DNA of 64,000 nt from an uncultured Parvularculaceae bacterium (GTDB lineage Bacteria > Pseudomonadota > Alphaproteobacteria > Caulobacterales > Parvularculaceae), in contig CAMYLZ010000008.1 in the NCBI GenBank assembly GCA_947259375.1, positions 1 through 64,000 on the forward strand, written 5' to 3'. How positions within the stretch are numbered: the stretch's first letter is position 1; every line of letters starts with the position of its first letter. The translations under genes and the position numbers were made by a program. Below the pieces are notes generated by a model. It searched no databases. It was not told the DNA's origin and saw nothing but the letters and a program-made list of their open reading frames with translations. Shown here one piece after another: positions 14,539-20,434 of this stretch.

Positions 14539-15834
14539 TCAGGCGTAGATGGGGAACCGGTCAGTCAGCGCCTTGACCCGCGCCGCCACGGCGGTTTCCG
14601 CCGCCGCAGAAGGCGCGCCGTCCCTGGCGAGCGCATCGAGCACTTCCGCCATCATTGCGCCGATTTCACGGAATTCCGCAACGCCAAAACCACGGGTCGT
14701 GCCAGCAGGCGATCCGACCCGCAGGCCGGATGTAACGGTGAATTTTTCCGGATCGAACGGTACGCCGTTCTTGTTGCAGGTGATGTTCGCCCGCTCAAGG
14801 CTGGTTTCGGCGGCATTGCCCTTAACCCCCTTGGGACGCAAATCGATAAGCGCAAGGTGGGTGTCAGTGCCGCCGGAAACAACAGCATAACCAGCCTCGA
14901 CCAGCGACCCGGCGAGCGCTTGCGCGTTGTCGATCACCGCGCGCGCATAGCCCTTGAATTCAGGGCGCAACGCTTCGCCGAACGCCACCGCCTTAGCGGC
15001 GATAATGTGCATTAACGGCCCGCCCTGAATGCCCGGAAACAGCGCCGAGCGGATCTTTTTCGCCAGCGCCGGATCATTGGTCAGGACGAGACCGCCGCGC
15101 GGACCGCGCAAGGTCTTGTGGGTCGTCGTCGTCACCACATGCGCATGCTCTATCGGATTGGGATGCGCGCCGCCGGCGACGAGCCCGGCAAAATGCGCCA
15201 TATCGACCATCAGCACCGCGCCGACGCGATCGGCGATCTCGCGGAAGCGCTTGAAATCGATCACCCGCGAATAGGCGCTGCCGCCGGCGATGATCATCTT
15301 TGGCTTATGCTCGTCAGCCAGTCGCGCGACCTCGTCAAAATCGATCCGGTTGTCGTCTTCGCGCACGCCGTAAGATACGGCGTTGAACCATTTGCCCGAT
15401 TGGTTGGCGACGCCGCCATGGGTAAGGTGGCCGCCCGACGCCAGATCCATGCCCAAAAACGTGTCGCCCGGCTTCATCACCGCCATGAATACGGCCTGAT
15501 TCGCCTGACTGCCTGAATGCGGCTGCACGATAGCTTCCGCGCAATTGAACAATTGCTTCGCCCGGGCGATGGCGATGTCTTCAACCTCGTCGACAAACTC
15601 ACAGCCGCCATAATAGCGCCGGCCCGGATAGCCCTCCGCATATTTATTGGTGAGCACCGATCCCGCCGCTTCAAGCACCGCTTTTGAAACGATGTTTTCA
15701 GAAGCAATCAGTTCGATTTGGCCTTGCTGGCGCGTGAGCTCGCGTCCCACGGATGCAAATATGTCCGGATCCGCATCAGCGAGAGTTTCGCTGAAAAATC
15801 CAACCGGCGATTCATAGGCGGTGGTGACGCTCAT
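14539..15834 (-). CDS. glyA: Serine hydroxymethyltransferase
   Basis: 431 residues from the ATG at 15834, which has GGAG eight bases upstream; an ATG seven codons earlier has no such signal. The PLP enzyme interconverts serine and glycine with tetrahydrofolate. Motifs seen: [37 protein letters not shown], and the PLP lysine in [15 protein letters not shown]. It heads the glyA-nrdR-nusB-thiL run. The upstream gap of about 450 bases is shared with the divergent mucR gene; no glycine riboswitch was recognised. Confidence 0.96.
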
Positions 15835-16019
15835 CAAGGCTGCTCCTGCATTCACGCGACGACTGCGCCGCGGCGGCCCGCGCCCGCCCCGGCAGATTCG
15901 CCAGACATATACGCGCAGCGCCCCTTGGCGGCAACGCGCAGCCTTTTTCGGGAGTTACCATTAGCACCAACCAGGCGAGTGAATCGCGAGACGCAACGTT
16001 ACAATCGCACTAACAGTTG

Positions 16020-16036
16020 TGTTACGAAATGTAACA
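16020..16036. promoter_or_regulatory. Inverted repeat TGTTAC-N5-GTAACA
   Basis: A perfect six-base inverted repeat around GAAAT, with another GTTAC about 20 bases to the left near 15998-16002. It lies about 185 bases upstream of glyA and 247 bases upstream of mucR. It could be an operator; the protein that would bind is unknown. Confidence 0.35.
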
Positions 16037-16157
16037 TTCATTTCACAAAACCAAGGCGTGGCGCTGCGACTGGCAATCAAGAACAAGCGAAAGTGATGCG
16101 CAATTCTGCAAAAACCGTGAATTTCGGCAAAAAAATCGAAACTTAATATTCTAGCTG

Positions 16158-16180
16158 CTTGAAACAATTGGAGTTTCAAG
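16158..16180. promoter_or_regulatory. Perfect 8-bp inverted repeat upstream of mucR (candidate operator)
   Basis: CTTGAAAC (16158-16165), seven bases, then GTTTCAAG (16173-16180). The arms match perfectly. It sits about 100 bases before the mucR start in AT-rich sequence, where a promoter is expected. MucR/Ros regulators often control their own genes, so an autoregulatory site is a reasonable guess, although known MucR sites are AT-rich and poorly palindromic. Confidence 0.4.
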
Positions 16181-16282
16181 TTACCGCCATAGAGGGGCGA
16201 GGTTCACGTATTTATACGTGGTTTGGGCGAAGCTCGGCAATGCCACAGTGTTGTTTCAATGCTGACAGGAGGTTCGCCCGGA

Positions 16283-16768
16283 ATGGAGAAGTCAAGAATG
16301 GTAACTAAGAAACAGGATGTTTCGGAGTCTGTCAGCGCCATCCACCTCGCAAGCGATATCGTCGCTGCGTATGTTGGCAACAACCCAGTAAAAGCTGACG
16401 AACTTCCGAACTTGCTTCACGAGGTCTACACGGCTGTTTCCGGGCTTGCTGAAGAAGGCGCCGCCTTTGTCAGCAATCGCGAACCCGCCGTGCCGGTCAA
16501 CAAATCCGTGACGCCAGATTTCGTCATTTGCCTCGAAGACGGCAAGAAGCTGAAAATGCTGAAGCGTTATCTTCGAACTCATTACAATTTGTCGCCTGAA
16601 GAGTATCGCCGTAAGTGGGGGCTACCCGCCGATTATCCGATGGTCGCTCCGAACTACGCCAAGCGGCGTTCGCAGTTCGCCAAGGACATTGGTCTTGGCA
16701 CGGCGGCCACGGCAAAAAAGCGCCGAACGACCAAAAAGAAGAGCACAGCCCGAAAGAAACGGGCGTAA
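16283..16768 (+). CDS. mucR: MucR/Ros family zinc-finger transcriptional regulator (altered zinc ligand)
   Basis: 161 residues from the ATG at 16283, preceded by AGGAGG at a spacing of 10; an ATG at 16298 is an alternative. The N-terminal part is the MucR oligomerisation region (HLASDIVAAYVGNNPV...LPNLLHEVYTAVSGL). The DNA-binding domain reads VICLEDGKKLKMLK followed by RYLRTHYNLSPEEYRRKWGL. In the family pattern C-x2-D-x9-H-x3-H the first His is Tyr96 here; C83, D86 and H100 remain. A Lys/Arg-rich tail (KKRRTTKKKSTARKKRA) follows. In Caulobacter MucR acts with SciP on CtrA-controlled G1 and motility genes, and sciP is the next gene here. Confidence 0.92.
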   Translation: MEKSRMVTKKQDVSESVSAIHLASDIVAAYVGNNPVKADELPNLLHEVYTAVSGLAEEGAAFVSNREPAVPVNKSVTPDFVICLEDGKKLKMLKRYLRTHYNLSPEEYRRKWGLPADYPMVAPNYAKRRSQFAKDIGLGTAATAKKRRTTKKKSTARKKRA

Positions 16769-17217: not shown

Positions 17218-17398
17218 ACACCATCCCATTACGGATCATAAATCTAAAATTGTCCTTATCCGAAACAGGATTGATTCGGAATTTTCACCAATAATCAACC
17301 ACTTATGGAAGCTTTTACCAAGCTGCTTAGCCGTTTTTTAAAAGCAGCCGCCTAGCTTCCGAGACAACATAGTTGCGTATACGGGGATAACTGTTGTC

Positions 17399-17689
17399 AT
17401 GAACGTCGCTGCCGAAAATGCCGTGCCAACCGCCAAAGCCGATGCTTATGTCATCGGCCCCGACGGAACGCCGCTCACCTTACGAGACCTGCCGCCGCCG
17501 ACGACGAAGCGCTGGGTTATCCGTCGCAAGGCCGAAGTCGTCGCCGCTGTGCGCGGCGGGCTGTTGACGCTTGAAGAAGCCTGTGAGCGCTACAAGCTCA
17601 CGGTTGAAGAGTTCCTGTCCTGGCAAAAAGCCATCGATCAATTCGGCTTGCCGGGTCTGCGCGCAACCCGCGTTCAGCAATACCGATAA
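17399..17689 (+). CDS. sciP: CtrA inhibitor SciP (DUF1153)
   Basis: 96 residues, the normal SciP length. The conserved block is intact: YVIGPDGTPLTLRDLPPP, then TKRWVIRRKAEVVAAVRGG and LLTLEEACERYKLTVEEFLSW, which forms the helix-turn-helix. In Caulobacter SciP accumulates in G1 cells, contacts CtrA and blocks activation of CtrA-dependent promoters, many of them flagellar. The gene stands between mucR and an FlhF-like gene and has its own terminator at 17720. GGGGA lies about 12 bases before the ATG. Confidence 0.95.
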   Translation: MNVAAENAVPTAKADAYVIGPDGTPLTLRDLPPPTTKRWVIRRKAEVVAAVRGGLLTLEEACERYKLTVEEFLSWQKAIDQFGLPGLRATRVQQYR

Positions 17690-20334: not shown

Positions 20335-20434
20335 CACCCCTCCTGGATGCAGCCAGTGTCCCGCCGAGTCGGACTGACGTTTATGCTCTTTGGTTAACGC
20401 CGCGTTAACGATTCCCATAATCGTTAGGAATTTG

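Follow-up and report, generated by a model that had tools for sequence, protein, structure and literature searches.

A MucR regulator with tyrosine at the position of the first zinc-binding histidine, and its distribution among alphaproteobacteria

As global regulators, MucR proteins control genes of the cell cycle, symbiosis and virulence, and they are commonly labelled zinc fingers. The Ros/MucR family itself, the use of an aspartate as ligand, an ill-conserved ligand set and members that hold no metal are all already known. In Agrobacterium Ros the zinc ligands are reported to be C79, C82, H92 and H97, with H96 able to substitute (PMC9779718), and in Brucella MucR they are given as Cys80, Asp83, His93 and His97, the domain binding zinc with a measured Kd of 12 nM (PMC11662661). 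Sinorhizobium meliloti MucR2 is described as binding zinc despite a missing fourth histidine; a tyrosine is proposed as the fourth ligand, the double mutant of this tyrosine and the preceding lysine is largely unfolded, and both MucR2 and MucR3 bind DNA without bridging (PMC13297338). For the metal-free Mesorhizobium loti protein Ml5, oligomer formation is reported to need L34, L37 and I38 (PMC11662661). In Caulobacter crescentus, MucR1 and MucR2 silence the promoters of G1-phase genes (PMC4241560).

The mucR gene of the window and its zinc-site residues

The window, by which we mean the whole stretch of 64,000 nucleotides that was analysed, carries a mucR gene at 16283–16768 on the forward strand, whose translation gives 161 amino acids plus a stop. 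The Pfam profile PF05443 (ROS_MUCR) matches residues 19–139 with 161.8 bits (cut-off 25.4; E 9.4e-48), and this gene is the sole Ros/MucR match in its own 3.2 Mb assembly, whereas C. crescentus has two paralogues, MucR1 and MucR2. An AGGAGG seen by eye at 16267–16272, 10 bases 5' of the ATG, supports the assigned start. The initial annotation had called the protein a MucR with an otherwise conserved DNA-binding domain, and both statements are borne out. Judged by spacing alone, L41, L44 and L45 (16403–16417, forward strand; L-x2-L-L, read by eye) appear to be equivalent to L34, L37 and I38 of Ml5. A Lys/Arg-rich C-terminal tail (residues 141–161; 16703–16765) lies outside the Pfam domain.

The alignment with the Ros domain (PDB 2jsp) runs without gaps. 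With all codons on the forward strand, C83 (16529–16531) falls on ligand C79, D86 (16538–16540) on C82, Y96 (codon TAT, 16568–16570) on H92, H100 (16580–16582) on H96 and Y101 (16583–16585) on H97. The reading of C83, D86, Tyr96 and H100 in the initial annotation thus agrees with the translation of 16283–16768, and its main point, a tyrosine in place of the first zinc-binding histidine, is confirmed by the position of Y96 on Ros H92. The Brucella ligands Cys80, Asp83, His93 and His97 fall on C83, D86, Y96 and H100; against this set, therefore, the third ligand alone is altered. A full set of four classical Cys-Cys/Asp-His-His ligands is absent from the window MucR, with Tyr96 standing in third place.

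Each of the described relatives shares part of this arrangement. Brucella abortus MucR has, like the window protein, the Ros/MucR domain, the cysteine, the aspartate, the ligand equivalent to His100 and a tyrosine beside the last ligand; its third ligand is His93 where the window has Tyr96, and zinc binding has been measured for its domain. Agrobacterium Ros resembles it in fold and in the gap-free alignment of the domain, but its site is Cys-Cys-His-His, whereas in the window Asp takes the second position and Tyr both the third and that of Ros H97. A non-classical Cys-Asp site with tyrosine as a proposed ligand is common to S. meliloti MucR2 and MucR3 and the window MucR. In the former the tyrosine, which in MucR2 aligns with Y101, takes the place of the fourth ligand beside an intact third histidine, whereas in the window it is the third that is replaced. 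Ml4 (compared by description only) and Ml5 also depart from the classical ligands, but they have been shown by others to be metal-free, and Ml5 is reported to be without the first cysteine (PMC11662661), whereas the window protein keeps C83.

The window MucR was also modelled with AlphaFold2, with no metal. The best model had a pLDDT of 77.8 (about 88 over residues 71–130) and a pTM of 0.43, the other four lying at pLDDT 62.8–66.7. In Foldseek it matched Ros 2jsp best (E 5.5e-5), with an rmsd of 8.4 and, by target length, a TM-score of 0.61; no other PDB match had E ≤ 0.001, and this model of moderate confidence points to a Ros-type DNA-binding fold. The model of a relative with histidine at residue 96 (L284; pLDDT 67.0) was too poor for a comparison of the two forms, and the underlying alignments differed, with 65 rows for the window protein (64 of the 80 named loci) and 50 for L284 (48 of the 80 plus the window).

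Occurrence of Tyr96 and its linkage to glyA

Within the genus, Tyr96 occurs together with His100 in 25/25 matches, which come from 21 of 28 genomes and include the window's own. In the rest of the family all 33 matches read have Tyr96, and 31 of the 33 have Gln100. Outside the family the order, which we take to be GTDB Caulobacterales, is divided between Tyr96 (48/109) and His96 (61/109), and the class outside the order has Tyr96 in 13 of 103 matches and His96 in 90. Among named loci, 20 of 80 have Tyr96. The rows that stand outside these counts (three partial ones in the family, one partial in the order, 11 low-scoring or partial in the class and a further 11 low-scoring or partial from an added collection) could hold exceptions, and plasmid homologues also lie outside the residue counts. 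The nearest named relative, at 85 percent, is Marinicaulis flavus (L276), now Hyphococcus luteus of the Parvularculaceae, whose NCBI order is Parvularculales.

Two genomes show other copy numbers. G279 (4.7 Mb) has seven Ros/MucR matches, one of them partial (L387, L395, L404, L406, L407, L408 and L409), with Tyr96 in all six that cover the site. G006, of the same genus as the window and with a listed completeness of 100 percent, lacks any Ros/MucR match, and the regulator may have been lost in this one close relative.

In the window, mucR is divergent from glyA (serine hydroxymethyltransferase; 14542–15855, reverse strand), and the region between them (15856–16282) has a GC content of 0.525 against 0.60 for the window. 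The same divergent arrangement is found in 123/123 loci with a glyA match inside the flank read. Of these linked mucR genes 111 carry Tyr96 and 12 His96, nine of the 12 being named loci, among them Thalassospira, Thalassobaculum and Magnetospirillum records. Counted by group, over loci no shorter than 2,500 bases whose flanks are of unequal length, glyA accompanies Tyr loci in 18/23 cases in the window's genus, 25/25 in the rest of the family, 26/27 in the order of G128, 4/13 in the order of G205, 17/20 among named loci and 0/1 in the class. His loci have it in 9/60 named and 3/26 class cases, and in 0/2 and 0/7 cases in the orders of G128 and G205. In the window's own order, glyA was seen beside none of 29 His loci with 1,500-base flanks; of its 48 Tyr loci, 20 were re-read with flanks of up to 3 kb, and glyA was present in all 20. 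On the evidence of these loci, the Tyr form is mostly the glyA-linked orthologue, in this order and in some other alphaproteobacterial lineages. Tyr96 turns out to be an ancient trait, fixed in a single conserved gene copy that many alphaproteobacteria have in common.

The residue was also followed on trees of about 122 columns, which have low resolution and lack bootstrap values. Taken as a single clade, Tyr96 fits them poorly: a FastTree tree of 214 rows gave 16 changes at this position, with two forced by starred branches. A tree of glyA-linked representatives with 15 unlinked His rows gave four changes, again with two forced by starred branches, and one of 310 rows gave 21. Weak as these trees are, they suggest that Tyr96 is clustered, with at least two changes forced by starred branches.

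Residue variation and the state of the metal site

Residue variation was read over 420 places, which remain from 429 loci once L409 (partial, with the site uncovered) and eight repeats of the same place are removed; counted as domain strings, 219 of the His-type and 194 of the Tyr-type are distinct. This sample is rich in kin of the window's genome and includes two lineages that were added because they held Tyr-types, and its named and unnamed collections may overlap in species. Residue 96 is His in 220 places and Tyr in 200, and neither Phe, Asn or Gln nor anything else occurs there; in what was read, the two are strict alternatives. Cys83 and Asp86 are kept together in 199 of the 199 Tyr-types that cover both, and the His-types include six with Ser83, five with Cys86 and three with Asn86. 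The Ser83 change, in paralogues within the order (L192, L195, L197, L198, L199 and L201), resembles that of metal-free Ml5.

Residue 100 varies freely: the Tyr-types have R (56), Q (49), H (40), N (33), K (10), T (9), S (2) and A (1), and the His-types A (69), K (43), S (27), T (25), H (19), R (12), Q (12), V (6), N (5), M (1) and one gap. The C-x2-D-x9-H-x3-H pattern, which the initial annotation gave for MucR, is therefore not the prevailing one in this sample, with His100 in just 19 of 220 His96-types and 40 of 200 Tyr96-types. At residue 101, Tyr, Phe and His together account for 414 of the 420 places (Y 169, F 28 and H 3 among Tyr-types).

We somewhat favour the reading that the site in this genus keeps a metal in altered form. 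The window MucR would fold as a Ros-type domain, oligomerise via its N-terminal helices, bind AT-rich DNA and repress its targets like other MucR proteins. In this genus the metal would be held through Cys83, Asp86 and His100, with Tyr96 as a fourth partner, either directly or through a bridging water, and Tyr and His at residue 96 would be two equivalent ways of building the same site. The invariant C83 and D86, the strict choice between His and Tyr, the His100 of the genus and the zinc that S. meliloti MucR2 keeps with an incomplete ligand set all speak for a metal, and the constancy of Cys83 tells against a mere loss of the site. However, L84, E85 and G87 are just as invariant as C83 and D86 in Tyr-types, so that the latter may serve a turn or DNA binding instead of a metal. 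Phe is also almost absent from Y108, Y118 and Y125 (one case at 118 and one at 125, both in His-types), and its absence at 96 is therefore not specific to a ligand. Since 160 of 200 Tyr-types are without His100, and 120 of 200 have no His whatsoever in residues 79–141, few classical ligands are left.

A metal-free fold, which the initial annotation had suggested and to which we assign a real but smaller probability, would have Tyr96, D86 and a long polar residue 100 replace zinc by hydrogen bonds or a salt bridge, in the manner of Ml4 and Ml5. That some MucR/Ros relatives fold without zinc, as the initial annotation stated, holds for these two proteins (PMC13297338, PMC11662661), which are reported to fold and bind DNA by means of extra hydrogen bonds and a larger core (PMC5693944, PMC11662661). 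At residue 100, 197 of 200 Tyr-types have R, Q, H, N, K or T and three have Ala or Ser, in contrast to the Ala, Ser, Val or Met of 103 of 220 His-types, and the 120 Tyr-types lacking any His in residues 79–141 also suit a fold without metal. Against it, the cysteine at 83, lost in Ml5 and in the six Ser83 paralogues, is kept in all 199 readable Tyr-types, and Arg, Lys, His, Gln, Asn and Thr are found at residue 100 in His-types too. The bias at this residue could moreover not be told apart from common descent: in a tree test of covariation between Tyr96 and residue 100, residues 90/92 or residue 132, only three independent pairs fell on supported branches. Of these two readings we lean slightly towards the retained, altered metal site, with a small share left for neither.

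Compatible with either state of the site, but in our judgement unlikely, is a functional split, whereby paralogues of the His-type and the Tyr-type would have different targets or respond differently to metal, with the window's own family relying on the Tyr-type alone. Both types are present in 35 of the 63 order genomes outside the family with a match read, the window's genome has the Tyr-type only, and a His-type was never read in its family, where 48 of 53 genomes have one copy and five have two. Set against this are the 18 of 63 genomes with His-types only and the 10 with Tyr-types only, and the behaviour of foreign MucR or Ros proteins at PhvyA in C. crescentus without mucR1/2. There the S. 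fredii NGR_c07580 and A. tumefaciens proteins are reported to work and the Bartonella henselae protein to be inactive, with B. suis MucR and S. fredii NGR_a00320 in between (PMC4241560). As some foreign proteins are active in C. crescentus, any split is not absolute.

A sequencing error at the TAT codon, which the initial annotation had raised, or a decaying gene can be dismissed, for although one C-to-T transition converts His to Tyr, Tyr96 is fixed in all 58 family matches (25 in the genus, 33 elsewhere), both synonymous codons occur (TAT 131 and TAC 69 over the 200 Tyr-types) and the open frame is full-length with a conserved domain. From what its relatives carry, Tyr96 is neither an error nor a peculiarity of this genome.

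C. crescentus MucR1 and the genes around mucR

C. crescentus MucR1 represses PhvyA, and plasmid-borne Y97C or R85C versions are reported to fail (PMC4241560). Among the matches of the order, the only positions with an Arg and a Tyr at this 12-residue distance are 89 and 101, a pair present in 7 of the 48 Tyr-types and 3 of the 61 His-types. MucR1 Y97 therefore very probably corresponds to window Y101, and MucR1 is likelier to be a Tyr-type. Taken from the spacing of two published mutations and not from its own sequence, this working repressor probably has the same tyrosine as the window MucR, although the three His-types fit as well. The His-types nearest to the His-type of a named Caulobacter MAG (L326; 90 and 89 percent) are in G075 and G110, and the Tyr-types of these two genomes carry the Arg of the 89/101 pair. 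If MucR1 is a Tyr-type, then a MucR with Tyr96 can actively repress, and Y101 is important.

More tentatively, an alphaproteobacterial branch of MucR, probably including C. crescentus MucR1, might have a natural Cys-Asp-Tyr site with a phenolate as third ligand, the switch between His and Tyr having flipped more than once; this branch takes in 200 of 420 places in the kin-rich sample and 13 of the 103 matches from the class at large. If the copy on which several lineages depend has a tyrosine among its ligands, the zinc-finger label needs testing in cell-cycle proteins, and the strict alternation of His and Tyr offers a natural experiment on the rewiring or loss of a structural metal site. In the partial texts available, a literature search on a third-position tyrosine, the His/Tyr alternation and the glyA link found no description of them; this is weak evidence, and Baglivo 2009, reportedly cited by others for the ill-conserved zinc ligand set, may mention the tyrosine.

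The role in controlling cell-cycle genes that the initial annotation suggested is plausible for the window MucR, judging by its family and by its DUF1153 neighbour. The DUF1153 gene (17399–17689, forward strand) lies 630 bases downstream of mucR, and its family is presumably that of the CtrA inhibitor SciP. Such a gene stands beside mucR in six loci (the window, L003, L005, L006, L008 and L276), L001 being omitted as a second copy of the window's place; none was seen in the remaining loci, many with flanks of only 1,500 bases from which a distant copy would escape. An SRP54-type GTPase, perhaps FlhF, comes after the DUF1153 gene.

The CtrA box is given as TTAA-N7-TTAA (PMC4241560). With one mismatch, a box of this type lies at 17327–17341, 57 bases 5' of the DUF1153 gene, as the sole site near mucR; one-mismatch boxes in the window are not above chance. 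An exact TTAA-N7-TTAA, a class to which this chance comparison does not extend, is present at 20394–20408, some 60 bases upstream of 20334, where a LysM/M23 lipoprotein gene probably starts.
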